A stretch of DNA of 64,000 bases from Macrolepiota albuminosa (Eukaryota > Basidiomycota > Agaricomycetes > Agaricales > Agaricaceae), in the NCBI GenBank assembly GCA_027475525.1, contig JAMWFC010000026.1:186001-250000 (forward strand), written 5' to 3'. The first letter of the stretch is position 1. Each line of letters opens with the position of its first letter. The position numbers and the translations under genes are program-made. The notes under the pieces are model-generated. The model was not told the DNA's origin. It saw nothing but the letters and a program-made list of their open reading frames with translations, and ran no database searches. Of this stretch, positions 4,884 to 56,722 are shown in pieces.

Positions 4884-4969
4884 CGCATAGTTTATCCCAT
4901 CAGCTTATCCTCCCACTTGAGGAGGGCCTTGAGTATGGCAAGAGTCTCCAGCTCATGCACCGCATAGTT
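4816..4969. repeat. 77-bp direct duplication in RNase H
   Basis: Copies at 4816-4892 and 4893-4969 are identical. Since 77 is not a multiple of three, the duplication shifts the frame between RT and RNase H. Confidence 0.95.
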
Positions 4970-5331
4970 TTGCTGGGCCATCGTGAACTTCTTCGACATG
5001 AACCCTGCTGGGCGGCAAGTCTGCCAGCTGCTTCCCTGACCATACATGGCTCTGACGCCTGTCTTGGACACGTTGCAAATGAGCCATATCAGGATGTCAT
5101 TGTAGTTTCGGGGCGTGCGCCACTCCCGAATGCAATCAAGCTTGTCCTGATCGGGGTGGATACCCCGCTCATCTATGACATGCCCTAGGCAGTCTATACT
5201 CTGAGCATAAAGCTCACATTTCTTCCACTTCAAGTACAACTTGTACTTGCGTAGTCGTTCAAATACGACTCTGAGGTGCTGCTCATGCTCCTCCATAGAA
5301 TCTGAGTAGATGAATATATCATCTAAGTAGA

Positions 5332-5485
5332 CGTGCATAAAACGTCCTATTACGTCTCGAAAAATAGATGTCATTAGCCTCTGGAAGGTTGCAGGAGCAT
5401 TACAGTCTCGTGCATAAAACGTCCTATTACGTCTCGAAAAATAGATGTCATTAGCCTCTGGAAGGTTGCAGGAGCATTACAGTCT
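5332..5485. repeat. 77-bp direct duplication in RT (palm)
   Basis: Copies at 5332-5408 and 5409-5485 are identical. The duplication falls directly beside the YLDD motif and breaks the RT frame. Confidence 0.95.
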
Positions 5486-5709
5486 CCAATCTGCATTCTG
5501 TTGCTTGTAAACGTGCCCATGATCAATGCAAATACGGTCTTGGGTCCGTCTTTGGTGCGAATGCACACCTGCTCATAAGCGTCAGTAAGGTCAATCTTCG
5601 AGCGATACTTCGCCCGAGCTACGTCTTCCTGGATCACCTCCTGATCTGGTAAAGGAGTTACATCCTTTATAGTGTTGTCATTGCACTGACGCGCATCAAG
5701 AGCTGTTCA

Positions 5710-5863
5710 AAGGGATCCATCCTTCTTTGGGATGCACAATAATGGTGCAGCTTGAGCAGTGGTGCATGGGAACCACCATTGAGCATAAGGGATCCATCCT
5801 TCTTTGGGATGCACAATAATGGTGCAGCTTGAGCAGTGGTGCATGGGAACCACCATTGAGCAT
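5710..5863. repeat. 77-bp direct duplication in RT (N-terminal part)
   Basis: Copies at 5710-5786 and 5787-5863 are identical and duplicate the coding segment around IPKKDGSL, breaking the frame. Confidence 0.95.
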
Positions 5864-6758: not shown

Positions 6759-7720
6759 TCATGGAGACTCCTTGCATTTCTCCGTAGTGCAGTGACGTCG
6801 CAGACGATTATCAGTGTCGTCTGCTGTAGCTCGTTTGGCTGAGATCACTTTCCCATTCACTAGTACCTGACAGTGGTCAAAGTCTAATATGACTTTGTTA
6901 TGCTGCATGAATGGTGTTCCAAGTATCATATCATAGCGATTGAAGTTCGCTACATCCATGTATTCCTGGCTACGTGAGCCCGGTGTTTGGACAGTCACAT
7001 TTGTCCCATACTGCACCATGGCTCGGCTCTCTACGGTGCCCAGCTGTAACGCCAATGGCGTATCCAACTCCTGCACGGATATTCCGTACACATGGGCAAA
7101 CTGGGGCGTTATGCCCAACGTAGTACTCCCAGAGTCCCATAAGGTCCATGCCTTGTGGCCATCTACGTCCACATACGAGACCAGATTATGCCCGATATAG
7201 TGCTCCCAGAGTCCCATAAGGTCCATGCCTTGTAGCCATCTACATCCACATATGAGACCAGGCACTCCTTGTCTGCCCATTTCAATGTAGGGCGCTGCAA
7301 AGTGCCCTCTGCACGACAAAGAGTTACCTTCTTCATCCGAACCACGTTATTCTTTTCGGGATCATTTGTAGATGGCCAATCCATCATCGCCGCTAGGCAC
7401 TCAGAGTCACTGTTGCGACTGTAGTACTTGTTGTCATAGACGTCATCATATACGTTGACTGTGACGTACTCCTCCCCCTCCACGACCACACTCTTGGGCT
7501 CGGCGCCCAATGCCTCCTCTGGGGGCTCCTGGTCATTTGTGGGTTGCTCTGCCTCAGACTCAGCAGACATGTCTCCATCACTCCCACTTGTGGCTGCAGT
7601 ATGTGCAGCTTGAAGGTGGGCGCAGGGTGTATACCCCTTCCTTGGGGCTCTCGGCTTTGCGGGGCAGTTAGTAGCGTAGTGGCCTGGTTGGCCACATGCA
7701 AAACAAGTCCCCGTCTGACC
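6759..7720 (-). pseudogene. Gag zinc knuckle and aspartic protease region
   Basis: On the minus strand at 7664-7705 a CCHC knuckle is readable (CFACGQPGHYATNC), the nucleic-acid-binding end of Gag. About 140 codons of acidic linker follow. Then comes a retropepsin-like domain with the active-site motif LWDSGST and the later ILGTPFM block. The protease is duplicated at its start by an imperfect 77-bp repeat, so the motif appears twice in different frames. The part at 6759-7319 reads through the complete protease fold region. Confidence 0.8.
7109..7262. repeat. Imperfect 77-bp direct duplication in the protease
   Basis: Copies at 7109-7185 and 7186-7262 share the 77-bp period but differ at about seven positions, all transitions. 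They look like two variants of the same locus placed side by side. Confidence 0.85.
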
Positions 7721-10278: not shown

Positions 10279-10589
10279 TGTAACGAAGTTACAGGAATTG
10301 TGAGCTTAATGTTCACACTGCACAGAATCAGACCAGTCCGGTCTATTGACTATGTAGTACAGAACAAAATAATAAGCTGCTTTGTAAGCAGCTAGTATAA
10401 CTATTTATATAATAATGTAAATAATATTATATTATAATAAATATAATAATAAGCTGCTTTGTAAGCAGCTAGTATAACTATTTATATAATAATGTAAATA
10501 ATATTATATTATAATAAATATAATATAATATTGACTACTACTGTAAGTATAAGCTATGTGGTCAACGCCACATAGTGGACTATGCTACA
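10279..10589 (-). repeat. 5' LTR of the chromovirus
   Basis: The right-hand LTR is about 311 bp and bounded by near-inverted ends TGTAAC (10279) and GCTACA (10589). Its outer half matches the left LTR. It contains hairpins (AGCTGC/GCAGCT and CTATGTGG/CCACATAG), an AT-rich core, and a 77-bp duplication. The inner boundary is inferred from the inverted ends only. I could not recognise a tRNA primer-binding site next to it. Confidence 0.65.
10368..10521. repeat. 77-bp direct duplication in the 5' LTR
   Basis: Copies at 10368-10444 and 10445-10521 are identical. The two LTRs carry 77-bp duplications of different segments, so neither was inherited through retrotransposition of a duplicated LTR. 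Confidence 0.95.
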
Positions 10590-13925: not shown

Positions 13926-15269
13926 TTTCTATACCAGTACTGATGCTTCTAGGGCTTCAGAAGTCTGAGAAACAACTATACAGGACAACAAAACCTTAAA
14001 AGCCCTTCAACATCTATTTTCCTGCTTCAAATACTTGATTAATGTTATAGAGTTTTTTGAATAGTATTTAGGCATCAAAATTTCTAAGCAACAAGCTATT
14101 TTTGTCCACAATAATGTAGGAATACCTTGTTGAAATAATCACCATTCCTTGTTTTGATACAGCTTTCTATGTACTAGCCATCTAGTGATTTGCTGGAAGT
14201 CATAATAATACATTGATAATATTTTCAGAGTATAGATTTCTATTGCAAATGTGTTTTGTACTAGTTTCTGAATCTCACTAACAGTGTAGTGCATTGCTTC
14301 TTCAGTGTCAGGATATAAGCAAATGATGGCTGTCTTCTATCTCTTATAAGTAAATGGCCTTGATGCTAGTCCATTGGTCATTTCTTGAAACTCTGTTAAA
14401 CCTATTCATAATTTCACCATGCCATATAAAATATTTTGTCTGCAGTAGTGGCAAGTTTTCTCTGCAAGAGTTTTGATGCTACCCTATTAGCATCTTGATT
14501 TTCTCAATAGGTCTACTGAGGCTTGTCTTCATAGACTAGTCTTTAGCTATATTATTTAGCCTATTAGCATCTTGATTTTCTCAATAGGTCTACTGAGGCT
14601 TGTCTTCATAGACTAGTCTTTAGCTATATTATTTAGCATAAATAGATAGCATAATTGTAACATTGCAACATATTTAGTAGTGTACTTCTTCATTTATGTG
14701 TTAGCAGTTACATAGCAGTTACATAGCAAATTTCAATTCTTAAAAATATTGCAAGAGTTTATAAGGTTTTGTTTCATCCCATTTTAGTAATGAGAAATGA
14801 TCCCTTGGCAGCATGTGCTAGGTATTAGCAGGCTCTATAATAGTAGAAAATTCTGATGAAATAGAGATACATAGTAGTAGAAAGACTAATATTGGTAATA
14901 TAATAGACAACTTCTGATATAACAAGGTTGCTGGGTTCAGGCAATAATGAAGCAGTGCACTGTCAATGGCAACTAGTAGCATATTGGCCATGGCAACTCT
15001 ACACTTCTTCAAAAGTTTAAATAGGCTTGCTCATTTTTTAACACAAGTTCAAATTGTTAGCCTGTCCCAGTACTTGATTGAAAAAACATCAACACATGCC
15101 ATAATCCAGAAGTGTTATCTCTAGCACCACCTATTATTTCTATTTTGAATAGTCTGAGGTGTCAAGCTTTTAGTAGATCCAGCTCCAACAGATGGCAGTG
15201 TCTAATATTTATCCCCATTTGAAATTGATCAGAGTTTGATGAACCACTTTTCCATAGATGTGCTAGTGT
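13926..15269. other. AT-rich repeat relics
   Basis: The segment begins with another fragment of the dispersed repeat (to about 14,010), then is AT-rich DNA with few CpG and no convincing frame. One 77-bp duplication lies within it. Confidence 0.5.
14483..14636. repeat. 77-bp direct duplication outside the chromovirus
   Basis: Copies at 14483-14559 and 14560-14636 are identical. This instance lies in unrelated AT-rich repeat DNA, yet the period is the same 77 bp as in the chromovirus. Confidence 0.95.
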
Positions 15270-15745: not shown

Positions 15746-17632
15746 TTATAAGTCCTGAATCCCTGCAGTCAGTAATGTTAACTAGTAGATGAGATTTTAA
15801 GTTGCCAAAAATAAACTAAGCCAGTAAAAAAAAGCCTGAATCTCCAGATTAACTGATGAGGGTAGGCATATCTTGTCTAGTGATGCACTCAGCCTGACCA
15901 GAAGCCTATCACTGGGCTTGTGGTGCAGCAAGAAGTCAAAGTTGAGGTTACCTTTATAGCCACTCACATTATAACTATATTTTCATCATCAACATATATA
16001 TGACAAGCCTTGTATTGCATGTCTTATTCACCTGTTCTCATGCACAATTGGTAATCAGGCTTATTCTTTAGCCTAGTTCAACCATTTGCTTCTGTTTTCT
16101 GAGATCCTAACTAGCTGCAAAAAGATATTGACTTAGGTATACTTTGTTTTCAAGAGAACAAACATAAGAATAGTGGATTGATGTAAGCATACTGCTTACT
16201 ATGCTGACTGTAGTACATGATTAGGGAGATTAGGGGCTCAGATCAAGGAAAAAGAGAACCTTATTTCAGAGATAATATATATTCACACAAGATAATAGCA
16301 GTAGATTATTATTTCTTTCTTTCCACAAAAAATATATTGCATTCCTGTTGTTGTGTTTTTTATGTACTTTGTCCCAGCCATGTAACTTAAGATAAAATGT
16401 GATTATTGTGTTGTCTTGTTGTAACCAAAAATTTACATTATTATCCCCATGCTGTTGGCTTATTCATGCTGATGCTGAACTTCTCATCCTCTATGCACTA
16501 AATCTTATTATTGATTGCTTGCTTGCAGTACCAATCCTGTCAGGTGGCTTCCAAACACACGAGGTTGTCAAATTGTTCATGCTGGTGCTGACCTTGGCAT
16601 CTGACAGTATGCACTTGATTCTGACAGTCTGTTGACTAAGTACTGATTCAACTTGTATTATGTCAATGCAATATTATAGGTTACCTGTTCTTCTCAAAAA
16701 AACATGTGCAGCAATACTATGGAACCTGTTTTGTCTCAGGACACTTGCAAGTCTGCTAATTTGTCTGATTCATTCTGCTTCACTTCACGTTAATGTCATC
16801 ATCACCACAGTCAGCTGACATCAGGTGCGGTGCTGAGGAGATGCCTAAATCTAGAGACTTTCGTATAATTTAAGTTTCATATTTGGATAGCATACCTAAT
16901 TTGGGGAAATCAGAGAATCATAGACACCGAGCTCTCAAAAAACACATTTTGAAATACTGGAGAATTTTGAAACCTGATGTATACAGTAGTATTCAGAGCT
17001 TCCCTAACTGCTCAGAAGCTCTACACTTCCTTTCGTGTAAATGCGTTAATCTGTTCCTATAAATAAGTTTACTTCTTTTCCCACACAGCTATATTCCCAA
17101 AAAGGAAGGTCGGGAGAGTCGGATTTCCATCTGTTGTCTCACCGGTCTTCGACAAGATTCATTAGCTTTCAAGCGTTCACTTAGGATGTTGCTGGCATAA
17201 GAGTCGCTCGACTTGAAGAGAAATCGGTATGCACTAAGGACGGCATGACGGCGAAAGACTGGCTAATCGGTTGAACGTGGTATAGAAGATAGGAGTTGGC
17301 TGTGCAAAAACGTAATTGCTGAATCCTGTACAGCCAAATCCTTTTTGAGACTCTCCTGGAGACCAAATAAGGATATACTGTCAGTCAATCTTAGATTGCG
17401 GTGCACGTCTTCCACTACATCCTTTCTAATCGAGAATCTCCTAGGTGTGTTAAAATGTCTGTGAGGGCTGTGATTGACTGGAGTGTACAACTCAGTGCAG
17501 AAGTCATCAAACCGATTCTTGTGCTCGCTCAGGAAACTCAATCAGGAAGAAGCTATGTCCTGAGCACAATCCTATCTACTTAAAGCCCGTTGTAGCTCAC
17601 TTTCGGAGTAAGGCATTTCCACTTATCTCGTT
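15746..17632. other. AT-rich region up to the first gene; nothing recognised
   Basis: No gene or structural RNA was recognised. Base composition changes at about 16.8-17.0 kb from CpG-poor repeat DNA to the more balanced composition of the gene-bearing part, which marks the edge of the repeat block. Confidence 0.5.
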
Positions 17633-18647
17633 ATGTTGATTCCTTTTATCATCACACCAGCAGGGCGCAGCACTAGCAGATTGCTTCCCCGCAAAGGTGG
17701 TGGCGGCGGCGGTGGCGGTGGACGAGGTGGTGGCGGTGGCGGAGGACGAGGATTCGCCTCTGGTTCTTCAGCAAAAGGAGGCAATGGCTTCAATACATCT
17801 CCATCTATATCATTGGGAGGTAAAACCATGGAAACGAGCCCTTCGAGCGCAGGCGGAGGAGCAAAGTCCATTATACCCCCTAATGAACCGTTTTCTGGGC
17901 GTGAGGTCGGTGGAGGGACACGCGATCAGGTCTATGGGACATCGTAAGTTCCTCTATGTATTTTTCATCTGATGACTGAAGTATCTGCAGGACATACGGT
18001 AGTGGTTATCCTGGAATTGGTGGTCGTGGCGTCCAGGGCCGCGGATTTCCCTTCGTGTTTTATCCGGTTGTTTTCTCGCCTCCAATAGGTGTCGGGGGAT
18101 CGTATCTGTACAACGAAGCTGAGGTGAACTCCATCACTTCATCACTTGTACTAAAGACCATGATGCTTACTTTGTCTAGTACGGAAAAGCAGATAATGCG
18201 AGCCGTCCAGGCGGCCCGCTTTTCCAAGTCTCTTTCTCATCCCCGAACTCAACATTTCACATTATCTCGGACAACATCACAGTTTCGTCCCTTCAAATAT
18301 CCGTTAACAATAGCTGTCATAGCACGAACGCCTTTACTGTCTCTGGCCTTCTGCCTTATAACTCCTCAAACACACCCTACCCCAGACCTGAGGAAGCAAT
18401 ACAATACTATCGAGCAAGTAGTGTTGTGCTCACTCTCGATGGCTATAATAATACAGGGGCACTCAGCAAGAACGAATCGGCTCTTCCGGTGCCTCTTCCC
18501 TCAAACGTCGATACGAAACTCCTTACATGCATGAACCACACTATAGGAACATCCGTGCTTTTGGTGAGCGCAGCTGGTGCTCGTAGTGCCCTACCTTCTT
18601 CATTCCTCCTCCTCTTTCTCTTTGTGTCAATTGGGCTCGCCCTCTGA
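17633..18647 (+). CDS. Glycine-rich membrane-associated protein, family member 1
   Basis: Three exons (17633-17943, 17991-18123, 18180-18647) encode about 303 aa. The order is a short basic N-terminus, a poly-Gly/Arg tract after LLPRK, a low-complexity stretch, YGSGYPG, a hydrophobic segment (FPFVFYPVVF), then an exon of N-glycosylation sites with two Cys, the block YYRASSVVLTLDGYNN, and a hydrophobic C-terminal tail. The layout suggests a surface protein held by one membrane segment and/or a C-terminal anchor. There is no classical N-terminal signal peptide. Two paralogues follow at 20.4 and 39.8 kb with the same exon plan; exon 2 is 133 nt in all three. Function is unknown. The family recurs in Agaricomycetes as far as I recall. 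Confidence 0.8.
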
Positions 18648-20387: not shown

Positions 20388-21381
20388 ATGTTTATTCCAT
20401 TCGTATCACAGCTTGCTCCCCGAGATGTGAAAAGATTATACCCTAGGAAAGGTGGAGGAGGCGGAAAAGGCGGAAAAGGCGGAGGTGCTGGCAAGTTGGT
20501 CGGTTCACCACACTCCACCCAAATCTCTGAGGGTGGAACCACAAAGACCGCGACGGCTTTTGGTTCAGGAGGGGGTAAATCTGCACCTATTCCAGCGGGT
20601 CAACTCTTCGCAGGTCGCGAATCCGGTGGCGGGACAAGAGCCGAGGTCTATGGCACACAGTCAGTTTTCTTATCTACTAGGTCTAAAATTCTAAACCTTA
20701 TCTTGATTACAGACAATATGGTAGTGGATATCCTGGCGTCTCCCAAAGAGGTGTCGCCAATCTGGGCTTTCCTTTCGTGTTTTGGCCTATTGCTTGGGGT
20801 GGTATCGCTGGAATTGCTGCGGGAGAGTATCTTCACACGTCTGAAGTGAGCCTAGTCTCTTGAGATTTCTGAACTTGAATATCTTATCCGAGTCTATTCA
20901 GTATGGCCGGCCCGACAACAGCAGCCGTCCCGGTGGCCCTCTGACCACTGCGACATTTGTTTCGAACTCAAATTCTAACACGACGTTCCGCCTCCTTGCG
21001 GACAACGCGACCACGGTATCACTTATCAGTGACATACAAGCCTCCTGCTCCAGTAATTTGAACAACGGATCTTCTTCCTTCGTCTCAACCCCTTACAATG
21101 ATTCGTTATCGTCTATTCCTCAGCCGGAACAGACGGTTCAATATTACCGAGCGAGTACTGTCGCCCTGACACTAGATGGTTATAATGATACTGCGGTCTT
21201 CGAGTCAGAGGGAACACCAGATGTACCGCTTCCCTCTAACATTGACACAACTCTCTTGAACTGCCTGAATACAACAATTGGCCAAGCGGTACCTTTGATT
21301 GACGGTGCAGGATTGGTAGCGCCGAATATGAGGCTTCTGGGATTATTATCTGTTATTTGGTCGCTTTCTTCGTTGTTCTGA
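20388..21381 (+). CDS. Glycine-rich membrane-associated protein, family member 2
   Basis: Exons 20388-20659, 20713-20845 and 20902-21381 give about 294 aa. The Gly tract here is of GGGGGKGGKGG type. The central exon reads YGSGYPG then FPFVFWPIAWGG and IAGIAAGEYLH, a likely membrane helix. Exon 3 begins YGRPDNSSRPGGP and carries several N-X-S/T sites, a conserved Cys pair (SSCSS and LNCLN), YYRASTVALTLDGYND and a hydrophobic tail. It is the same orientation as member 1, 1.7 kb away, so a local duplication is likely. Splice sites are GT-AG and keep the frame throughout. Function is unknown. Confidence 0.85.
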
Positions 21382-23190: not shown

Positions 23191-24813
23191 TAGCTACGAG
23201 GGGATGGTCGACAAGGTCACCATCTCCCTCATTCCACATCCAAGCGGTGGCCACTTTGAACCTTCAAGCCTCAGCCCTTGATCGGACTCGTCCAGAAGGA
23301 CTGAAATGGTCGACGGGATCCCTTCCCATAACGAGCTCAAGCAACTGAGAGCGTACGACAACGACTCAGTCTCGTTCCATGGCTCACGGGAATGAAGCCA
23401 GACGCCATCCCAAGACGCCCACAAACGACGCACGAGGCTCACTGTGGGTGCTTTCGTGTCCAATTCTGGAAACTACAAGCGGGGGAACGGCGGGCCGTGG
23501 AGATAGGAGATGGAAATATTCATTATGGGGGCGCACCGAAACACTGATGGAAACGGAAAAATTACCTGGGATAACCCGGTCAATTGATGAGTTGACTCGA
23601 TCATGATCGCAAAAAAAGGTCCGTCTCGGCTCGGTGATTGGATAGGCTATGTATAGTAATTGATTCCGCATTTCAAATAATCCCGACTCTTGAGGCGTTA
23701 TTGTATTTTCCATGTGGAGAATATTATGCTCCGATGTCGAGGATTGCCTAGAAACGGGTTACAAGTAAATGTCTTGTTTTGTTATGGGTAGTGGCTGCAC
23801 AGTGGTCTTTGGAATTGGGACATACTTGGGAGGAATTTGCAATGAGGGACACGTGGGGCTGAGCAAAGAGACGACATCTGATGATGGGTACAAAGACGGT
23901 GCATCAGAAGGAAATTCCGGTTCTCCCACGAGAGTCCATCTCGATAGAAAGACCACGTTTCCCAAGGACACCCCTATGCGTCAACTGCGCTAATTTAATC
24001 TAACCGACACTGAGGCATGTATCTCGACCTTAGCATTGCCACTAATTTAGAAAGCATGGGTGGCAAGTAGAATAGTACTGTCTCTAGGCAACCGGGCGGC
24101 TGAGAAGAAGAAAGTGGTGTAAAATGGTCATTTGTGGAACAAGGTGGACTTGGAGAGAAGTCAATTGCAATAGGACTTTCAAACGCGCCTTGATCCGGAA
24201 ATGAGAACACGTGGGAGATGGAGACATTGTTAAGTGTTTTCTTCGGAGAAAGCCAGAGAAGGCAGGTTAATGCCCCAGTTTCAGGAATAGGTGATACATA
24301 AGATATCATCAGGGTTCATGTTTATTTGGTAGATGGATCTTGACAAGGCAGATGAACTGAGTCCAGCATCAACTGTCTTGAGGACGAGTGATATAACTCT
24401 AGCGATCATGGGGACCAAGCGGTATCAACTGCCACGTAGGGTCGAAGGTCTATTAGGAACAAGAAGGTTGAGTGAGGGAATAAACAAAGTGCCGGATTAA
24501 GCCACAATGGAATGGACGAAAAGAGAAAGAGTTTAATGATTGGGACCCCAGAGGCTGATATGATGGAGAAAGACAAGCAATCTGTTGGGCTCACAGCGAC
24601 GACAAATGCAGTGTTGGTCGTCGAGACGTCTAGATACATACTACTTTTGTTGAGAACAAGCGGGAGTAACGTGGGTGCATGGTCGTGAGGATGGGAGCGC
24701 CGGGACATCAGGGACGTGGGTACCAGGGGGCCGCGTGAGAAGGAATCGACCCTGATATACGTCTGATGGGGGTGGTCGACATATAAGTAATCCCAGAACA
24801 ATAAACTCCTCAT
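23191..24813 (-). other. Possible unrecognised multi-exon gene or pseudogene
   Basis: A series of non-overlapping minus-strand frames (24406-24813, 23995-24309, 23759-23971, 23384-23713, 23194-23463) has protein-like composition: hydrophobic and Pro/Ser-rich, with segments such as IKLFLFSSIPLWLNP and CLLWLSPKKTL. The run is interrupted by stops, some possibly inside introns. I cannot assign a family and could not build a clean exon model. It could be a decayed gene next to the HMG-box gene, or chance. Confidence 0.2.
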
Positions 24814-26592: not shown

Positions 26593-29500
26593 GTATGGAC
26601 TGTCCGTTGTTTTTTTCCCTTCCGATTTCCCGTTTTATTTCTTCGTTACGACATTAGGACAGATTGGTTTTCTGTAGCCTAGTATTTTCTTTCCTCTATC
26701 TCCTCTATATCATCATACTTCTAGTCGTGTCTTTTTAATACGTTCCCCGTATCTGTCTCCATCTACTGTAGCCATATACCGATCCCCTCTTGTAGCCTTT
26801 CGTGTCTTGTTCGTTCGTCGAGGACTGTCTCGATTAAACCGTTGTATTTTTATATCTCCTGTCTGTCCTGATCAATAAACGTGTTCTGCACACCTTATCT
26901 CAGTTTGGCGAGCCTGAAGCCTTTCATCAAGATATGTACATAATCGATGTACCCCGGGTTCAATATTCAGTGGTCACTATTGACGACGCATGCTACTAGT
27001 AGTACTGGAGATCCCTCTTCACAGGGTGGCACAATCTTGATAAGTATTAGGTTTCCTTCTCTATGAAACCTACGCATATGGACTGTACGTTTAGTTGCCC
27101 TCTCAACCACAGTTCTCTTAACTAATTACTGTACCCTGTATTCCACTTCTCTAGCACTTCGGAATTGGATAATGTGAGGGGGGTCAGCTTGCTCGCGTCG
27201 GCGGATGAAAGGGTTCTGTTCTGTTGGAGCTAGCGCCAAGGGTGAAGTCAATTGAAGAGCGTGTATACTCGGATCACACGATTTATACATCGGCGCCCGT
27301 GGTATCGGAGTCGATGGCTCGCGGCATATGATAAACTTATGCTTCTCTCTGTAATTTACACGTTAATCGCACAAGTCTATGCATATGTATACCAATACGC
27401 CTTTCCCCCATGATGAGATTTTACGCCTTTATCGTGGTACTCTATCCCTTGATCATATGCTAGTGGCTCCAAATATCACAAACTTATCTGATACGCGATC
27501 CTGACATGACTTGATCCATGAGAGAGTATACCTACAAATACGGCACTTGCGGCTTTTTCCGGCGCAAGGCTTATTCAATTCATATTTTACCCAAGTTGGA
27601 AATAGAAACGATTTCGGATTTCATCACCTTTGCACGATTTTCATCGAGTTTCTAGCAGGTGCTACGAGATTGGTAAAGAAGCCTTGACCTCCTGGACCAA
27701 AGAAATACAACATTTGCTCTGGTATCCACAACTCTGTAGGCTTATACACGCTCTCAACCATATCGTTTGCGTTCACAGATGTGTGGAGGTACGGGTCCGG
27801 GTCGCTTGTCAAGTAACACCTACTGGATCACCACAGCTTCTGAATGATGAACTCGGTTCTTCTCAATCATCACATCTTCTGTCATCTATCAACACTCTTG
27901 ATTTCCTGGATTGTGTTTATTCCTTCATCTACATCGTTCAGATTTCAATACGACATGTTCACCCGCTTCCGGCGGACCACGTCACCAGTATCAGGGTCCA
28001 GTTACTAGACTTGCTCAGAGGGGAGAAAAGAATGGTCTTATCTGCCTCCAATAATATATACCTGCCCAAGCAGTCACAAATCAACTAGGTATTCCACTCT
28101 TTCACGGCCCAGGGTTCCGGCTCCAGGCTTCAAGTGCCTCCTTCCAGTAATTTCGAAATGGAACGAATCTTTTGGCGGCATGATAACAGGCATGGTTACG
28201 TCTTGTAATGTCATCCTCGCGATGCGCGTCCACGGTGACCTGGTATACCCGAGGCCTCGTTGAAGCCAAGAGGGATGGATCTTCGCGATACGGTATCAGT
28301 TTATGCGCAGATCTCCCTAGGCAAAACCTACTGCGGGGACGGTTAACTATCTTCACGCACCACTTGGCCCTAATGTAGCCTGCGATCGACGTTGAGCCTA
28401 ATGAGGACCTGCACATGTACACACATACAGTGCACTCCACGTCCAAGGCACAGAAGTGAGATCACATCCGGGAGCTCTCCCACGTCTCCCGTGGTCCCAC
28501 TCTGTTCACAAACTAGACTCGGCAAGTAGCGAACCAAGCTAAGCCATCGTATGAATATTGCCCAGGCGATGGACCAGCTGATCGACCTGATCTGGAAGCG
28601 GAAGGCGGGCACTTCGTCACATCAAAAGGCTTAGCTTCGCTAGCAATACTTCGTCGTACGAGACGAACGGAGATGCTGGTCAGGGGGAGCTTTTCGTGAT
28701 AAGGCGTTTTCCGAGGCACTGGTCATGTGCGAATGAAAAACGCGTTTGAGCAACATGTCGAAGGTGTCATTCGTTGATTGTTCCCGAAGCGGAATAGGTC
28801 ATGACCAGATCACGCTTGGAGGACTCGTTAATGGATAAGAGAAGGCAACGTCTCTCTGGGAGTGACATCCTAGACAACAGTGGACGATCTAAGGCCGTAG
28901 CCCCCTTCGGTTCTGATATGCTTCAGAGTAATTCAAGCACTCTGACCGTGAAACCCTTCTGCGGAGATTGATCGCCCATTCATGCTGTTTCTAATCGCAC
29001 AGTGAAGTGGGACTTTTCCTGAAGATTTTCCGATAGAGTAGGTAGTATATTCAGATCTTCAGGCGTACTGGTTTCTGACGCTTGTAGTCCTTGATGTGAA
29101 AGCGGGCTCGCGGTACACCCTGCTTCGTCCGAGGGGATGAGAGGATTGTCTATTCTAAGCTGTACCCCTCCCATATCCTATAGAGCATCATATTCAAGTC
29201 AAATCCGTTCGGTTCTGACGTTTAGGTACAGACAGTCCTCTTCGAGAACGACCGCGGAGCCAAACGTCTTAATGCTGTCTCTCGTTGCCTACGAACCGCT
29301 TTACGGCGACTAAATTTCCTGACGTCACTTCCCACCGGTTGCCTCAATGTGATTGTAACAAAACCTTGGACAAATCACGAGCCACTACCTTGGCAAAAGC
29401 ACTGATCAGCTGGCATACCAGCAACGCAAGGACCCGTAAGGTTTACTTGTGACTCTAGACTGGACCTACTTTACCAAGGCACACAAAAGAATTCAACGTC

Positions 29501-30220
29501 TAATACACTTTCTGATACACTTCCTGCTAATCGATAATTCTCTTTTTGCCCGGTTATCAAGCTCGATTTAGACACGAACACATGTAACTCGGGCCTGCTG
29601 GATGCTCATATCCTCAGGGCCGAACGCTAGACGGCCAAACCGTTCAATGCTCTTTTCGGTTGACAATCTGGGGTTTGTATCTCTCTTTTACATGTCCAGA
29701 ACTTAGCTGGCCGGAACCCTTCTTTGAGTATTGCTGCCGCGTTGTAGTAATGGCGATGTTACACATGCGCCGCCGGGAATTTCATCGGCGATTGCAACGC
29801 ATCTACGTGTGGGGAATCCTTTACCGAACTACCGTATTCCTCCTTCATCCTTCAGTTTCTTTACAGACGTCGTCAACATGGCGCGTCCGGCAAAAGCCTG
29901 CCGTTGTGACATTCTGATATGACACTACAGAAGATCGATGTTCAGAATGGAAGGTAAAAATTACACCCATGCACCTTGTCTCCTACGAGACTCGTCCAAT
30001 GCATGGTCTTGTAGACAACTCAACCAATTATATTTTTTTCTTTGAGAATGATGCTCTATGAGTTTATGTTGGTTCGAGTCATGACGGATGTATCAAAGAG
30101 TAACAGATCACTCAGTTTGCTTCTATCTTTATGGGGATAGGATATTGTAGGTGTTAACAAGTCCTTCGTGATAGGCACACGATCTTCCGGAGGAGCCGTA
30201 TAGGTTATGTTCCTTTTTGC
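26593..30220. other. Long intergenic region with at most gene relics
   Basis: No complete gene is recognised in 3.6 kb. Minus-strand frames at 28102-28446 (ending NYWKEALEAWSRNPGP) and 27624-27812 look protein-like but are separated by stop-rich DNA; they could be exons of an unknown gene or a fossil. The remainder shows nothing. Confidence 0.45.
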
Positions 30221-30227
30221 TATATAA
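30221..30227 (+). promoter_or_regulatory. TATA-like box of the peptide-precursor gene
   Basis: TATATAA lies 60-66 bp upstream of the ATG of the secreted peptide precursor. Many fungal genes lack a clear TATA box, so its presence fits a strongly or conditionally expressed gene. Confidence 0.45.
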
Positions 30228-30286
30228 CATGATCGTTCGGCGAACCTAACATTATCTACTTCGAGCGCTAGCCCCTCTCACTTACG

Positions 30287-31110
30287 ATGCACACCATCAC
30301 TATCATTTGTGTCTTTGCTTCGGTCCTGCTTGCCGTCAATGCGGCCCCTATCGTGAGTGCTCTACCTCCGCTACCCTCTTCTATCTCCAACGATGATTTT
30401 CAGTATGTCGCGGAAAATGTATAATAATAGTTTTCATGTCACACTCTGTCTTTTTTACTTAAAAAATCTTCCATCTTATAGGACCTCGCACAGGCCAGCA
30501 GGTCTACATGGAAACAGGTATGGATAGCTGTTTGTCAACTTTCCTCATCCCCCCCTTTACATGTCCTTTTTCTTTCAGGACTCGATCTTGGATTCTGCTC
30601 ATACTTCTGAAAGCAAACATGTTGAAGCTTGGACCCCTGCATGGAAGCAGGTATGTACTCCTATTATTCATTATGTCTCTGCCCTCATGTGTCCTCTTTT
30701 GTTTAGAGCTTGATTTTGGATTCTTCTTCTGCCTCTGAGGACAAACGCGCTGAAAGTAACACGCCTTCATGGAAACGTGTCAGTAGCCTATTCTTTCGTA
30801 TATCATACTCATATATATCTTTGCATAGAATGCTGTCCCCGCTGCCGAAGCTGGTGCACCTGGCTGGAAGCGTGCTGATGAAGGCGCGCCCGGCTGGAAA
30901 CGCGCTGATGAGGGTGCGCCTGGCTGGAGGCGTGCTGATGAGGGTGCGCCCGGCTGGAGGCGTGCTGATGAAGGTGCGCCCGGCTGGAGGCGTGCTGATG
31001 AGGGTGCGCCCGGTTGGAGGCGTGCTAATGAAGGTGCACCTGGCTGGAAGCGTGCTAATGAAGGTGCACCTGGCTGGAAGCGTGGATCCACCGGTGCGCC
31101 CGGGTGGTAA
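30287..31110 (+). CDS. Secreted Kex2-processed repeat peptide precursor (GAPGW array)
   Basis: Six exons (30287-30352, 30404-30418, 30482-30517, 30579-30650, 30707-30778, 30829-31110) encode 180 aa; every intron is phase 0. Exon 1 is a signal peptide (hydrophobic core about residues 4-17, then NAAP). Exons 3, 4 and 5 each end in a unit of the form STWKQ, TPAWKQ or TPSWKR. Exon 6 starts AVPAAEAGAPGWKR, then has seven decapeptide repeats (ADEGAPGW or ANEGAPGW plus KR or RR) and ends GSTGAPGW followed directly by the stop. So there are nine GAPGW copies, eight with a dibasic site. Family knowledge: this is how fungal Kex2/Kex1 substrates such as pheromone and RiPP precursors are built. Predicted products are octapeptides such as ADEGAPGW. 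No modifying enzyme gene is recognised beside it. I infer secretion and multicopy release; the biological role is unknown. Confidence 0.85.
30874..31083 (+). repeat. Seven 30-bp tandem coding repeats
   Basis: Seven 30-bp units, each one decapeptide, differ mostly at synonymous third positions (GAA/GAG, GCG/GCA, CCC/CCT) and at AAG/AGG and GAT/AAT. Units 7 and 8 of the array are nearly identical to each other, suggesting recent local duplication. Confidence 0.9.
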
Positions 31111-32846: not shown

Positions 32847-34286
32847 TTATCTTGCTGACAAGAAGCGGTAAAGGTCAGCAACCAGATAGAGACTTCCAGC
32901 GACTACCACCAAGCCATCACCGTCCGTTTTCGCTGCCCACTCTAGCGCATGCTGCAATTGATTTTCAACGGCCTCATCTGCAACCCATACTTCAGCTTCT
33001 GGGACTAGCGAGGTGACAGTATCACGCATGTCTCCAGGCGCAACTGATTTGACCCACGGCATTTCATCGGGAGGTGTAAATCGCAAGCAAGCAATCCTGA
33101 GATTGATTTTCAACGACGATTGCGAAGGAAGCGTTGGAGGAAGGATCGGTGACAGGGTCTGTAGGGGTGTTTTCGGAGGCGAATGGGAAAGAGACAATAT
33201 ATAGGTGAGGTTGAGAGAGGAATTCGTATCAACGCGAGAGAGAAGGTGCGTGATATACGATCCCAATGTTGCCGAAGAGGCGGGGTTATGTGCACCATCC
33301 GCTAAGACAATGAGAGGTCGGGTGATTCCACGCGTTGGTTCAGCAGGAAGTTGGTGGAAGGACAATCGCCCTGGCCACCGCACAGATCGAATGCCCTGAG
33401 AAACCGTTTCAGGTGAGATACTCTTAGCTATCTTGGTATGAAGCGATGATGGATGAGCGCAAAGCGTGGAAATGGCTGTTAATGCCACCCCCAGATTCTC
33501 GAGCTGATGATCACCAAAGAGTGGCAATGTTGCCTGTATATCACGAGCAAAACAGGGCATGTGAGCTGTAACGGGAGATGGAGGAGGTTCTCTGAAGTGA
33601 TCTGGAGCCATGTTAAAGGAAGATTGTAGAGGACCATCAACATTGCGATTCCAGTCGCGTCGATCGACCTTAATTGAGGTTACAAGCTCTCCTCCAACAT
33701 TCCTAACGACTTCTTCTACTGATTCTAGAACTTGAGAATGTTTTTGAGGTCCTAATACAAATACGCGCCCTTTTCTGGCAATTCCTGCCTTTTCTCTGGC
33801 AATTTCAGCTACAGTGTTACCCAGGAAAAACTGGTGATCGAGATCGACAGATGTCAAAGCAGAGACGAAAACAGACTCGTCTGGTATGATGTTGGTCGCA
33901 TCCAAGCGACCACCCATTCCAACTTCGAGGACAACGACATCTACTTTGGCCTCCTCGAAGATAGAAAGTGCGGTCAGGGTAAGAAGCTCGAAATTGCTGA
34001 GTTTGGTATCGTGGACTCGATCGGCATCTGTTATACGAGACCTAGCACGCATATAAGTAGGTGCATCAATAGCAGCATCGTTAATACTAATGCAGTCGCG
34101 AATCGAAACGAGGTGAGGGCTATTATATCGCCCAACTGATAGTGAGGAACTGCATAGAATTGAGGTTAAAATTGCCGATACACTTCCTTTCCCATTGGTG
34201 CCTGCAATATGAAAGGTCGGGCGCGTGTAAGGCGGTAAATACTGTACGAGACGCTGCAACCTGTCCAGACTAAGATCAATCGACAT
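32847..34286 (-). CDS. FOL3: Dihydrofolate synthase / folylpolyglutamate synthase family
   Basis: A single 479-aa frame without introns, unusual among its intron-rich neighbours. It shows the Mur-ligase-like fold of the FolC/Fol3 family: P-loop GTNGKGS (29-35), EVGMGGRLDATN (121-132), FGDHQLENLGVAL (257-269) and DGAHNP (330-335). Such enzymes join glutamate to dihydropteroate using ATP to make dihydrofolate. The short form without a mitochondrial extension resembles yeast Fol3 (dihydrofolate synthase) more than the polyglutamate synthase Met7, but the two activities cannot be separated surely by eye. A second Met-rich start upstream is not needed; the chosen Met leads straight into the conserved N-terminal helix. 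Expected location is the cytosol. Confidence 0.9.
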   Translation of the reverse strand: MSIDLSLDRLQRLVQYLPPYTRPTFHIAGTNGKGSVSAILTSILCSSSLSVGRYNSPHLVSIRDCISINDAAIDAPTYMRARSRITDADRVHDTKLSNFELLTLTALSIFEEAKVDVVVLEVGMGGRLDATNIIPDESVFVSALTSVDLDHQFFLGNTVAEIAREKAGIARKGRVFVLGPQKHSQVLESVEEVVRNVGGELVTSIKVDRRDWNRNVDGPLQSSFNMAPDHFREPPPSPVTAHMPCFARDIQATLPLFGDHQLENLGVALTAISTLCAHPSSLHTKIAKSISPETVSQGIRSVRWPGRLSFHQLPAEPTRGITRPLIVLADGAHNPASSATLGSYITHLLSRVDTNSSLNLTYILSLSHSPPKTPLQTLSPILPPTLPSQSSLKINLRIACLRFTPPDEMPWVKSVAPGDMRDTVTSLVPEAEVWVADEAVENQLQHALEWAAKTDGDGLVVVAGSLYLVADLYRFLSAR

Positions 34287-34910
34287 CTTGGTACGGTGTT
34301 AATGAAGTTTTGAAAACTTGTTGGTATTGATATTTCACTTTCTAGACGCGGGCGGACTTTAAAACTTCGCTTCTGACGGACCATGCGGTTGTCTCGGCCT
34401 CGCTCGGCCTTGGTCCGCCACATTTTGTCAGGTGAGAGTGGTTCCATAAGAGAAGGAAGACTGAGAGTACTGAAATCCGCAACGGCATGTATAAAGCTCC
34501 TGGAGCTGACCCTCCCTATGGTCAGAGTATGAAAGCCGCATGAACAGCGCTGGCGACGGCGCCAGTGGCGTGGGTGCTTCTATTTATATCTAAATTTTCT
34601 CATCGTCAACAAGGCAACTTCCGCAGACCTGTTGATAGTTCCTCTGGCCAGACCGAGTAAATAAATTCCGTTATACTTAACAGAAACTGAGTACTCACTT
34701 GCTTAAAGCTCCCAACAGAAGACGTAAATTTCTACGTTTGGAGATGACAGGTTCCATGAGGGTGCACGTCAGTAAACCCACGATTTGATGGCAGACTGTT
34801 CCGATCCTGGCCATCTCGTCAACGTGGCCGGTCTTCAGCCGATGGCTTTAATTGGCACCTACTTAAAAAGAAATGTACAAGTGTACTGGCATTGACTCTT
34901 ACCTAAATAA
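34287..34910. other. Divergent promoter region
   Basis: The 624-bp gap between the divergently read dihydrofolate synthase gene and the first membrane-protein gene must hold both promoters. No specific element was recognised. Confidence 0.45.
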
Positions 34911-39766: not shown

Positions 39767-40801
39767 CTAAGGCATCAACGATAAAACGTTCCATAGCACA
39801 TAGAATAGCCCCAAAAGGCCAATGTGTGGAAGGGACAAGCATGAATTGATTGCGTCACTACTCAAGGGCGCTGCAAGTCCTATAGTCTGATTTAAACAAT
39901 TGAGAAGCGCCGTATCCGTGTTCGAGGGTATTGGTGAATCGGTAGCCCCTTCGTTGGCATACACAGCGGAATTGTTGTACCCGTCCAGCGTCAACGCAAC
40001 AGAGCTAGACCTGTAATACTGGATGACCTGTTCAGGCGTCGGATAGCCATTGAATTCGGAAGGAGATGTCGAACTACTACCAGCATTCAAGTAAGACGAG
40101 CAATTTGATGAGATGTCAAAGATGAGGGCGTCGACCGTGGAGTTGTCGGACATGATGCGGAAGGTGCTATTGTTAATGGGATTGGCGGATTGGAAGGAGG
40201 CAGCGGCAATCGTGCCGCCTGGGCGGCTAGAGTTGTCAGGGAGACCGTACTAGTAAAGAATGTAAGGACAATTAATCCAGACGAAAGAATACTGTAACTC
40301 ACCTCATCATCGTGAAGATACGCCGCGGTTCCTATACCAGCCGCAGTACCCCAAACTAAAGGCCAAAAGTAAAAGGGGAACCCGCGGCCGGCGACACCGG
40401 CACCCGCGATTCCAGGATATCCGCTCCCGTACATCCTGAAATTCAGTTAGTCTAAGGCCAGGATAGATCTTCACTCTAGAGCGTTACCGTGTGCCAAAGA
40501 CCTGACTTCTGGTACCACCACCTGCCATGCGCCCCGCAAACAATTGACCAGCTGGTATCATAGCCGGAGTACCGCCTCCTAAACCGTAGGATTTGGCAGA
40601 AACCGTCTTGCCACCTGAATTGATACCATAAGATGTCTTGGATGACCCCGAAGAACCTTTTCCACCGCTTGAACCCCCAGAACCTTTGCCACCGGAACCA
40701 CCCCGTCCACTGCTGCCGCCTTTTCCACCTCCCCCACCACCACCCTTTCGTCGTACGAGACGTCTAGACTGTTCGTGAGGAGTAATGAGTGGAAAGAACA
40801 T
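39767..40801 (-). CDS. Glycine-rich membrane-associated protein, family member 3
   Basis: Exons 40801-40488, 40435-40303 and 40249-39767 encode about 309 aa. The start FFPLITPHEQSRRL leads into RRKGGGGGGG and a Gly/Ser/Lys tract. Exon 2 (133 nt, as in the other two members) reads YGSGYPG, GRGFPFYFWPLVWG and an Ala/Gly helix. Exon 3 begins YGLPDNSSRPGG, has many N-glycosylation sites, the Cys pair (SNCSS and LNCLN), YYRSSSVALTLDGYNN and a hydrophobic end. An in-frame extension upstream of the chosen Met exists, but the chosen start matches members 1 and 2. It lies 18 kb from its paralogues and on the opposite strand. Confidence 0.85.
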
Positions 40802-51851: not shown

Positions 51852-52877
51852 ATGAAGTTGACCGTACAGTCTGTTATACTCCACAAATATTGTATCTATT
51901 TCTAATGAGTGATCAACTAAAGTTAACAGCCAAATTTATGGATAAATGTGATTGATTTTGTTCGGTAATACCCGTATCCTTGCTCTCAGCATCACTATGT
52001 ATATCACATTTACTGTGAACGCTCTCATCAGAATATTCTCTCTGAGATGAATATTATACTGACTCTACTCTGTCTTGATATGGTTTCACTTCCGCTTCGT
52101 TGAAACTTGACCCTAGACAGGTGAAATAATCAGACTGTATAGAAGTGTCATGATTTTATTTTCTCCTTGTGCAGACAACAGTGATATTTGCCGATGTTAC
52201 TATCGATTCTAGACTCTCGGGCGTCTTCAACAACTTGAACCTCCTCTCTTGTCCTCATTCTTTTGTTTACGCATCCTTCTTCTGTTGACTCCTCTTTCGA
52301 ACTTGCTTCTCTCATCTATACGTGGTCGTGTTCGCTTATTTTTGACTCATCTTGTCTTTGCGTATGACTTCAGTATTTTTCAGAAGTGGACTTTCCCGTT
52401 CAAGGTTCTTGAACTTGCTTCTCATCTACAACTTCATTCTAGAATATGCTGCTCTCTCGTCGTGGGCATTAAATCACGATTTTTTGGTGGAATTGACTTG
52501 GTTTCGCCCAAGTAAACTTGTGTGCAAGAGATAATTCAGTATTACCCATCTATCATCCATCAACATGTCGTCGTGGTGACAGTGCGACAATCGATGGTTC
52601 TGTAGAAGATATTCAGACTTGGTATTCTCGTGACCGACATGCCGTTTCAATCATATATCATACAAAAAGGATGACGTTGCTGATTCCCGAGCCTTGACCG
52701 GTGACCTTTAATGCCGCGGCCCCAGTTATAGATTCAAGATAAATAACGAGTCCCACAGCTGGACTGGAAGGAGGTGCATGACGGATAGCATTTCAGACCG
52801 TCCCGACGCTATGCAATGTGAATGATGTAGGTTCTACTCAGCGCTGCATTATCGCTATAATTGATTTGTGTTGATGA
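51852..52877. other. Intergenic; nothing recognised
   Basis: Pyrimidine-rich patches and short frames only. Confidence 0.5.
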
Positions 52878-52885
52878 TATAAAAG
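52878..52885 (+). promoter_or_regulatory. TATA box of the first flavin monooxygenase gene
   Basis: TATAAAAG lies 33-40 bp before the ATG. This is close for a TATA box, so transcription would start near or at the ATG. Confidence 0.4.
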
Positions 52886-52917
52886 GTTTCGTTCGAACTA
52901 GTTTTTCTTCTCACACT

Positions 52918-55406
52918 ATGACCACCGACGAACTCGTGCCAGCGGCGACTCTCCCTACACTTCAGAGGCTAAATGTCACCATCCCGACCGATCTCGACGC
53001 CAAAGCTATCGCAAAGGCATGGCTCACTGCTTTTTCTCTGTCAATGGAAGCATGCGACGCCCATGGTGTAGCCAAACTCTTCGTCGACGATGGCTTCTGG
53101 CGTGACATGCTCGCTCTCACTTGGGACTTTCGCACGTTTTCTGGTCTCCCAAGAATCACGCAGTTTCTTGTTGATCGTCTGGAATCAGCACGTCCTAAGG
53201 CTTTTTCTCTGCGTCACGATGCCTATCTTGGGCTGCAGCGGCCATATCCAGATATTGCCTGGATTAACCTTTTCTTTGACTTTGAAACCCCCACAGGACT
53301 TGCATCTGGCATCGCACGGTTGATTCCTGATGCTAATGACGAATGGAAGGCGCACACTGTTTACACTAATCTAGAGGACCTCAAAGGTTTCCCGGAGAAG
53401 ATTGGGCCACTCAGGAACGCAGCTCCGATGCACGCCGAGTGGACGTATAATAAAAAAAGGGAAGCTGAGTTTGTGGATAAGTCCCCAGTGGTGCTCGTCG
53501 TAGGAGGTGGTCAGAGTGGACTGAGCGTCGCCGCGAGGCTGAAGGCACTTGAAGTGCCGACTTTGGTAGTTGAAAAGAACCTGAGAATCGGTGATAATTG
53601 GAGGAACAGATATGACGCATTATGCCTTCACGATCCAGTTTGTGAGTTGTTTGTAATGCTTCTTTCTACCTACGCTAATAATACCGGATGACGTGCCAGA
53701 TTATGATCATATGCCTTATCTTCCGTGTGTTTTCATCGTTTGTTATGTGATTGACCGGATTTGGATCTCATTTCAATTTGTGTACCTGCTGCTTCTTAGA
53801 TTCCCACCTACATGGCCGGTATATACCCCAGCAGCCAAGGTAGGCCATTTAGGTCTGTAAAGAGAAATATTAATTAATCTTTGTTCCCGCAGCTTGCGGA
53901 TTGGCTCGAGAGCTACGCTGAAGCGTTAGACCTGAATGTTTGGACATCGTCCTCGGTCGTCAGCGCAGTCCAGGATGGAGATAAATGGAATGTGTGCATT
54001 TGCCGCGGTGATGGTTCACAACGTACATTTACGGTAAATCATGTTGTCTTTGCAACGGGATTCGGTCTCGAAGAGAGCGTTTCTCCCACATACCCCGGAA
54101 TGGTAAGGCATTGGACCCGCTTCTGTTCGCTTTTTGACAATTTTTCGCAGGATTTATTCAAAGGACAGATTTTACATGCAAATCAATACAAGAATGCAGC
54201 TGATCACATTGGAAAAAAAGTTGTCGTAATCGGCGCATCTACATCTGGTGCACAGGCAGGCTATCATGGTTCCTTTTGAATGCATCTTTGACTGCAGTTC
54301 ATTATTCTAGCCCATGATATCTGCGCTGACTACCATGAAAGTGGAGTTGGTGAGTGACACTCATTTGTCCTTTACGAAAACCGTGATCACTGACATGATT
54401 AAGAAGATGTGACGATGTACCAACGCAGCTCAACGTACGTTATGTCTACCACCAATGGCTGGAAGGTCGTCGCGCAAGGTTTGTTCAGTTCATCTCACAT
54501 TTTTTTGTAGCTGATCGATACAGGCGTTTACTCTGAGGGTGGACTTCCCACTGATATCGCTGACCGACTCAGCGCGTCCTTTCCCAGTTATGTCACGGTT
54601 AGCCTTGCTCAGCGCCGAACCAAGGCCATTGCCGAGCTCGACAAGTCTGTTCGCATGCTCAAAATCCACGATGGTTATGTTAACTATACACAATTCACAA
54701 CAGGGATTTGCTGGACGCTCTGTGCGCAAAGGGTTTTAAAGTCAACCTCGGTATTCAAGAAACTGGGTTCAGACTCCTAGTATGGTTACGACTGGGGGGC
54801 TATTATCTTGGTAAGTATCTTATCATCGGAGCGTAGCTCATTCGATTCCTTTTTTCACTTAGATACCGGGACGAGCAAGCTCATTGCAGATGGAAAAATC
54901 AAACTTAAGAGTGGTAGCAAGCTTGATGGCTTCACAGGGACAGGATTGATGTTCGAAGATGGATCTGAGCTTCCTGCTGATGTCGTAATCTTTGCAACAG
55001 GGTAAGTAAGCGCAATTCGGGGGCGCAATATCTGGGTTTGAACTTCTTATCTGACGGTAGTGTGGGTGATTTCCGCTCCCCCATGTGCAAAATTATCGGG
55101 GAAGAGGTGTTCAAAAAAGCCACTGTGGGGACTTGACTCTGAAGGGGAGATGAACGGTGTATGGCGTGACCTCGGCGTCAAAGGCTTGTGGTTCATGCTT
55201 GGTAGGGTTTGTAGGACACTCATCTATTCAATTCTGAATGATGGTAAATAGGCAACCTTGCATTGTGCCGTTTCCATTCGAAACATATTGCTCTTCGTAT
55301 GTCTGCCCTGTGATGGTGACTCCAGGTCTTTGCTTAACCTCTCATTGTAGAAATCAAGGCCATAGAAGAGCGGGTATTTGGAGACAGATACGCTGCTAAA
55401 GTTTAG
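52918..55406 (+). pseudogene. Flavin-dependent monooxygenase, copy 1, frameshifted
   Basis: Thirteen exons match copy 2 one by one (ends 53641, 53724, 53839, 54102, 54247, 54349, 54478, 54644, 54810, 55001, 55201, 55296, 55406). Exon 11 is 141 nt here and 146 nt in copy 2. The missing 5 nt near 55,112, after an A-run, shift the frame and give an early stop (KKATVGT then TGA), losing about the last 60 residues. Before that the protein is complete: N-terminal NTF2-like region, FAD motif [35 protein letters not shown] motifs and the NADPH site VVVIGASTSG. It is either a recent pseudogene, a truncated enzyme, or a sequence error in the A-run. Confidence 0.75.
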
Positions 55407-56722
55407 ACAGATCGTTCTTAGTCTTCCGCTGCAGAGACCAAAGCCATTGTATAGTGCACAGTGTGAAACAAGACTGACAGTGTTACGTTATATGTCTAGT
55501 CGCTGGGTCAAACTATGAGCTACGTGTTTACGACAGAGATGACACCCTAGTGCATGATTCGGATACTTTGAATGGACTGCGGACAAGAATAACTTGAGGA
55601 TAGAACTTGGGCTTTGTCTGGCATCTGTTCAAATTACTATACAACTTCAAATTCCGTATAGACGGTCGTCAATAGACCGTCTTGGTACTGGTCTCAAAGA
55701 GGCATCAACAGTATGGTACGGGTGACCCGTGATTTACAGTCATGGTACGGAGCAGTACCGATGAGGCAAACACTTTTTATTTATTTGCACGCTGGCTGAG
55801 TGTTAGTTATTACTTCTACAGTTGTTGTAGAGATAGACTCTCAGCTATCTGTCGTGGCGGTGGCGTCGGTTACTACTCTTTGTCATTTTCCTTTACTTCA
55901 TCCTCTTACTGGTAATTGTGCAAAGCGGGGAACAGATAGCTCAAGAATTGCGGCCACAATTTTGGTTTGTATCAAGTAACGTCAGTATACTGTATCTCTC
56001 TCTCAAATCTCGTTTAACTGCAGAGGAAGAACCCCCCTTTCTCTTACTTACGTAAGAGAGTCGGGAATCCATCTTTCGTAAATTTGGTCCCAACACGGAA
56101 TTATCCGAATGACTTCCAGAGTTAGCTGACTGACCCGCACTAACGCCTCTAAATTTCACCAACTAAATGACTAACTCAAATGACCCACTGACCCGGTCAT
56201 TTTCAAAACCCATGTGACCGTTCAGAACGCAACCTGCCTGGCAGAGAATGGCGCCGTAAAAATCCCCTATAGGACTGGACTTACGGGGAAAGCTGCAGTA
56301 TGGGCGCCCAGTTTCTTCTGCCGCCACCACTTTGTGGGAAACACCTGCTCTGATCTCGGTGATGGAATAACATGGTTAAGATCACTTGGAACTTGGTTGG
56401 GTGTATTTTTTTCTTTGAAACACGGAGATATTTTTGTGATGCACCAATTATTCACGCCCTTCTTCCTGTCAACATTGTGTCAGCATTACAAGCAGCGCAT
56501 CAAGCTTCTCTGTCATCATCTCTATTGCTACAGTCACGGACAAACAAACACGACAATTTTGATAGGTGAGTAGTCGTAGGTCCTTGGCATACCAAGTCCG
56601 ACGATCTTGGGGCTGACGTGTTTCTTTACGGTACAGTTCATGTGACGCTCTGCGTGGAATCGCATTACAAATCGGGACATAAAGCGGCCTGAGTTTCTTT
56701 TCCTAAGAGCGTCCACCCAAGG
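55407..56722. other. Intergenic with a cluster of small palindromes
   Basis: Between the two monooxygenase copies lie three short perfect hairpins at 55,660-55,760 (AGACGGTC/GACCGTCT, ACGGGT/ACCCGT, GGTAC/GTACC). No gene is recognised. Confidence 0.5.

Follow-up and report, generated by a model that had tools for sequence, protein, structure and literature searches.

Surveys of KEX2-processed repeat proteins (KEPs) cover 250 secretomes (PMC6339444) and 1461 strains (PMC7329392), and mass spectrometry has detected Trp-ending KEP peptides of mushrooms (PMC9769878), according to the available excerpts of these papers. The excerpts of the last one describe many basidiomycete KEPs as carrying STE13 motifs together with a C-terminal Trp. 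Those of C. cinerea (490115 and 447393), L. edodes (2599) and P. ostreatus (1091723) combine a signal peptide and kexin dibasic sites with short Trp-ending peptides, and KEP peptides of C. cinerea were still present in every kex knockout (PMC9769878, same excerpts). Six kep knockouts of C. cinerea showed no phenotype in pure culture and the KEP peptides tested were without antibacterial activity, so that a role is unproven for the class; the authors suggested one towards the biotic environment (PMC9769878, same excerpts). Comparable builds are found in ascomycete alpha-pheromone precursors, with a repeated core, KEX2 sites and STE13-type dipeptides before the first core, and in dikaritins of the ustiloxin type, which derive from a KEX2-cut repeat precursor.

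A gene sharing these traits was found in a 64,000-nucleotide stretch of DNA (hereafter the window) on contig C76 of a genome assembly (G000) of 100.1 Mb in 129 contigs. Judged from its sequence, it very probably encodes a secreted KEP that is processed to short peptides, an assessment that covers precursor and processing and not role. The coding span runs on the plus strand from an ATG at 30287 to a TAA ending at 31110, coordinates that were checked in the window sequence. At this place the first-pass annotation had put a tandem precursor with nine GAPGW copies, and both the coordinates and the nine units were confirmed. Joining five exons (30287–30352, 30482–30517, 30579–30650, 30707–30778 and 30829–31110) gives 175 residues, with introns that are all GT...AG and in phase 0, the first measuring 129 nt. 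The six exons proposed previously fit as well, with an added 15-nt micro-exon encoding YVAEN (30404–30418, +; preceded by AG, followed by GT and in phase) and introns of 51, 63, 61, 56 and 50 nt. Because all introns then measure 50–63 nt, we lean towards this predicted splicing pattern, although five exons are also compatible with the sequence.

Splice sites and signal peptide were judged by eye. Exon 1 (30287–30352, +) consists of 22 hydrophobic codons, comprising the start codon and the signal-peptide-like MHTITIICVFASVLLAVNAAPI, and is followed by a GTGAGT donor; it would provide the N-terminal signal peptide characteristic of KEPs. A TATA-like CTATATAA (30220–30227, +), seen by eye and without statistics, lies about 60 bases upstream of the start codon. 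Exon DLAQASRSTWKQ (30482–30517, +), with GT-AG borders in phase 0, has a W-K-Q end, and exon DSILDSAHTSESKHVEAWTPAWKQ (30579–30650, +) a degenerate x-P-x-W unit; two exons upstream of the repeat exon end in KQ and not KR. Exon SLILDSSSASEDKRAESNTPSWKR (30707–30778, +) contains a KR site, the core AESNTPSW and another KR site. A bacterial promoter scan was set aside as inapplicable to a fungus, and a Pfam match of the precursor to a CTD domain, at 15.2 bits against a cut-off of 25.4, was taken as compositional.

The last exon (30829–31110, +) contains NAVPAAEAGAPGW, which ends in the only AEAGAPGW unit, eight further GAPGW units (five ADEGAPGW, two ANEGAPGW and one GSTGAPGW) and the stop codon TAA. 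KR or RR, noted after W in the first-pass annotation, follows eight of the nine units, and the ninth is the end of the protein; Trp directly precedes nine of the ten dibasic sites of the precursor. Near-identical repeated motifs with KEX2 sites between them, as in KEPs, are therefore plainly present. Tandem Repeats Finder reported the array in two overlapping rows with scores of 324 and 366, with a 30-base unit in 7.7 copies, and the array is far from chance. Among the GAPGW codons, third positions are variable in four of five cases and first and second positions in none of ten. In the seven inner 10-codon units, one, one and seven of ten columns vary at codon positions 1, 2 and 3, respectively (hypergeometric P ~0.0017 for the third-position excess, with columns treated as independent though the units arose by duplication), and the dibasic pair is kept through K/R switches among units. 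A 122-codon open frame on the minus strand could be taken to mean that the gene is antisense, or the repeat might have no coding function, but the variation tracks the codon positions of the plus frame, and a second gene, on contig C55 (see below), has a shared motif and a similar leader exon; both observations make these explanations extremely unlikely.

In the first unit of the plus-strand precursor, four X-A/X-P dipeptides (NA-VP-AA-EA; 30829–30852, +) stand before GAPGW, a run that was absent from the first-pass annotation. This STE13-type signature, defined as X-A/X-P dipeptides after a dibasic site, is present in one of the nine GAPGW units, that of NAVPAAEAGAPGW. The other eight start with AD, AN or GS and would stay untrimmed under the STE13 rule; in-silico trimming of this type yields GAPGW from the first unit alone. 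In lacking such dipeptides most window units differ from the Trp-ending mushroom KEPs, as these are described in the excerpts of PMC9769878. The two 72-base exons (30579–30650 and 30707–30778) are identical at 47 of 72 bases and 12 of 24 residues, and none of 20,000 codon shuffles reached 47; both exons also end in x-P-x-W-K-Q/R. This likeness and the shared ends suggest that the gene was enlarged first through duplication of an exon and then through repeat expansion within the last one.

Two further copies were observed in the genome. A comparison of 20 kb showed contig C73 to be collinear with the window, with identities of 97.5, 99.2 and 98.8% in the three main blocks; we treat it as the other haplotype of the region. 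Its allele has eight GAPGW units, one fewer than the window; from the ATG to the first GAPGW the exons of both are identical and the introns differ by one substitution and four indel columns. Contig C68 (about 16958–18620) has a 1.67-kb copy of window positions 29291–30961 at 98% identity that includes four GAPGW units before it runs into unrelated sequence, which suggests a truncated duplicate. In the part that precedes the first GAPGW, this copy carries four exonic substitutions, three of which change the residue (one of them replaces a Trp by Gly at a place other than the core end); its introns show five substitutions and two indel columns. With the window protein as query (E up to 10), a search of the genome returned 16 matches, which were confined to C76, C73 and C68 and included two antisense self-matches and two weak ones (E 2–3). 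A simple GAPGW-coding pattern matched 25 times versus 2 in the control, with 18 matches in the three copies and 7 elsewhere. Of the latter, the four on C58, C110, C115 and C39 were inspected and rejected as further precursors, their frames being without an array; the other three are on C89, C94 and C114.

Allelic variation in repeat number is common among secreted repetitive wall, adhesion and effector proteins. The difference between the two alleles, together with the KQ ends of two upstream units, would suit a protein of this sort that acts whole, with its KR/RR pairs uncut. We consider this very unlikely: all but one of the ten KR/RR pairs come after Trp, and K/R switches leave the pair intact, a pattern for which cleavage accounts and a whole-protein role does not.

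A search for processing sites of the same type used W-[KR]-R, gap, P-x-W-[KR]-R; this pattern needs ARR as the first and CGN as the second basic codon and so would miss KEPs with other codons or single units. It matched 18 times in the 100-Mb genome and 0 times in a reversed-pattern control: seven matches fell in the window array, six in the C73 allele, two in the truncated copy and three on C55. A looser triple pattern matched 125 times forward and 97 times in reverse, versus 34 and 28 in the control, and was mostly low-complexity among the matches listed. The C55 matches belong to a second precursor gene (C55, 23300–24900), in which 22 hydrophobic codons, by eye, lead from the ATG to GTGAGT. 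Its last exon encodes the cores GGNTPGW, GPPGW, GGTPYW, DRYTPNW, GRYTPNW (twice), GGNTPGW and ASPGW. Trp stands before KR/RR at six of the eight sites of this exon; after GPPGW comes RH, which is no dibasic kexin pair, and the last unit is the end of the protein. The putative C55 KEP thus resembles the window gene in its x-P-x-W cores, KR/RR after Trp, final unit without a dibasic site and 22-codon exon 1, and is unlike it in its core heads and in the STE13 dipeptides (EP-EA, EA-EA or similar) that precede most cores, ASPGW having none. In BLASTP the window protein and C55 were 41% identical over 96 columns (E 9e-11, in a single comparison of repetitive sequence). The whole-protein search of the genome did not return C55 at E up to 10, so their kinship rests on motif, gene build and this one BLASTP, from which we infer common descent. 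No second C55 allele was found in the genome by the W-[KR]-R pattern. The C55 precursor would tie the window gene to the STE13-type, Trp-ending mushroom KEPs.

According to the mechanism that we propose, the N-terminal signal peptide would take the window precursor into the secretory pathway, a Golgi kexin would cleave behind every KR or RR, and removal of the basic residues by a KEX1-type carboxypeptidase would yield linear peptides with a free C-terminal Trp. Secretion, cleavage and linear form are all inferred. Predicted products are five ADEGAPGW and two ANEGAPGW, counts that match those predicted by the first-pass annotation, one GSTGAPGW, AESNTPSW and one NAVPAAEAGAPGW; the last could be shortened to GAPGW by a dipeptidyl aminopeptidase of the STE13 type. 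Calculated [M+H]+ values are 802.337 for ADEGAPGW, 801.353 for ANEGAPGW, 732.331 for GSTGAPGW, 1210.585 for NAVPAAEAGAPGW and 487.230 for GAPGW. The gene would be one of two x-P-x-W precursors found in the genome, the other being that on C55. As to the machinery, the kexin-type P-domain (P_proprotein) gave one exon-sized match in the genome, on C110 (the control matched in 1 of 14 genomes), and DPPIV_N gave two matches at one place on C107.

A cyclic RiPP had been among the options of the first-pass annotation. Formation of a dikaritin-type RiPP, in which UstYa-family oxidases cyclise the KEX2-cut cores through Trp or modify them in another way, would agree with a precursor build like that of ustiloxin-type KEPs and with the presence of at least five UstYa matches above the family cut-off in the genome; moreover, one KEP type with W beside P has DUF3328 genes in 4 of 7 cases (PMC7329392, available excerpts). 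However, these five matches lie on C106, C58 and C9 and none of them on the precursor contigs C76, C73, C68 and C55, in an exon-by-exon profile search for UstYa (DUF3328) that could miss fragments; UstYa was likewise not found among 20 window open frames scanned with Pfam. In addition, the window cores are without Tyr, a further difference from dikaritins, and a DUF3328 neighbour is reported for only 103 of 1680 (6.1%) Basidiomycota KEPs (PMC7329392, available excerpts). The cyclic option is hence disfavoured and very improbable; with no UstYa match on the precursor contigs, the most likely products are ADEGAPGW and ANEGAPGW in linear form. Two of the UstYa matches, on opposite strands of C58 (537168–541933) and separated by about 4 kb, may mark a RiPP cluster, around which no repeat precursor was found by a simple-scan rule in about 27 kb. 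A GAPGW-coding site of C58 is near two UstYa matches and is without a repeat.

A CaaX farnesylation motif at the C-terminus is the mark of basidiomycete sexual pheromones. The window protein ends in GAPGW and has no such motif, and the ascomycete alpha-pheromone core is unrelated to the window core. Basidiomycete sexual pheromones are not made as alpha-pheromone-type repeat precursors, as stated in the excerpts of PMC6339444. A search of the genome for the STE2 receptor gave no match, and its control likewise none. In molluscan APGWamide precursors, basic sites lie between the APGW copies; a Gly before the dibasic site is the amidation signal. As in the window gene, several copies of APGW occur in one precursor (PMC8557429, available excerpts). 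The window gene differs in having no Gly between Trp and KR, and thus no amidation signal, and in belonging to a different kingdom, and the likeness is assumed to be convergence.

A protein database search with the window precursor gave 201 candidates each at E 0.001 and E 10, of which none passed. This database holds many Agaricomycete proteins, which makes it probable that relatives have the gene without an annotation or in diverged form. No precursor with a GAPGW core was found in the full-text literature; supplementary tables of the KEP surveys may list one. In the available excerpts, a peptide from the Paracoccidioides antigen gp43 contains GAPGW, without a dibasic pair after it, and a mushroom immunomodulatory protein contains YTPNW, as in C55 cores. 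By their titles, the remaining GAPGW papers deal with logistics and hepatitis C polypeptides, and a lectin review was also listed for the C55 and C. cinerea cores. The window precursor was not found by title among the matches listed for Termitomyces literature on peptides, KEX2 or RiPPs. The APSW endings of C. cinerea KEP peptides are close to the APGW of the window, but the GAPGW core with its ADE and ANE heads was not found among the mushroom KEP peptides named in the excerpts of PMC9769878, where, unlike the window array, GPPAPSW comes from a non-repetitive C-terminus. The peptide had been called undescribed. Within the reach of the searches this is true of the exact core, but not of the kind, which is already described as KEPs, including Trp-ending mushroom peptides (PMC9769878, same excerpts).

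Other features of the window were recorded. Seven two-copy tandem duplications of different sequences (1–145, 4816–4970, 5332–5486, 5710–5863, 7109–7261, 10368–10525 and 14483–14637) all share an exact 77-base period, with 100% identity in six and 90% in the seventh. Adjoining blocks of the C73 alignment overlap by 77 bases at window 23481–23557, so that C73 seems to carry one more. These features look less like biology than like an artefact of assembly, left by unmerged overlaps in a k=77 graph. Pfam scanning of the 20 window open frames detected HMG box, Mur ligase, NAD-binding, P450 and retroelement domains, with 13 of 20 frames unmatched. Three open frames (18180–18644, 20845–21378 and 39770–40249) have in common a motif like YGxxDNSSRPGG, with G/K-rich frames near two of them; two of the three, and one frame overlapping the third, gave no Pfam match. 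Two similar oxidoreductase-like open frames lie on the same strand at 52861–53688 and 56693–57493, and a P450 at 63048–63536.

The precursor gene neighbours a folylpolyglutamate synthase-like gene with a Mur ligase domain (32850–34298, −). Among the matches listed for its product, five Termitomyces strains showed 89, 88, 84, 82 and 79% identity, other agarics 74% or less, and one protein of source 'lgn' 99%. On the basis of this one gene, the window is most likely from a Termitomyces. If so, the Pro-Gly-Trp and Pro-Asn-Trp peptides of both precursors could signal to the termite host via hormone receptors, as their ends resemble the C-termini of the insect and crustacean AKH/RPCH hormones and of molluscan APGWamide. 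This idea is highly improbable: cores of the window and C55 genes have no amidation Gly and no N-terminal Gln, and C. cinerea does not live in symbiosis with termites. Its peptides, too, have endings of a similar kind (APSW; PMC9769878, same excerpts).

As for the role of the window peptides, a guess at about even chances is that they would serve as an extracellular signal or in biotic interaction, rather than as toxins or structural components. Few KEP peptides have a known role, although they occur widely among fungi. A farmed fungus with one insect partner would be a good setting in which to test the biotic-interaction idea for KEPs, and the exact peptide masses, together with two similar precursors, make a direct test possible.
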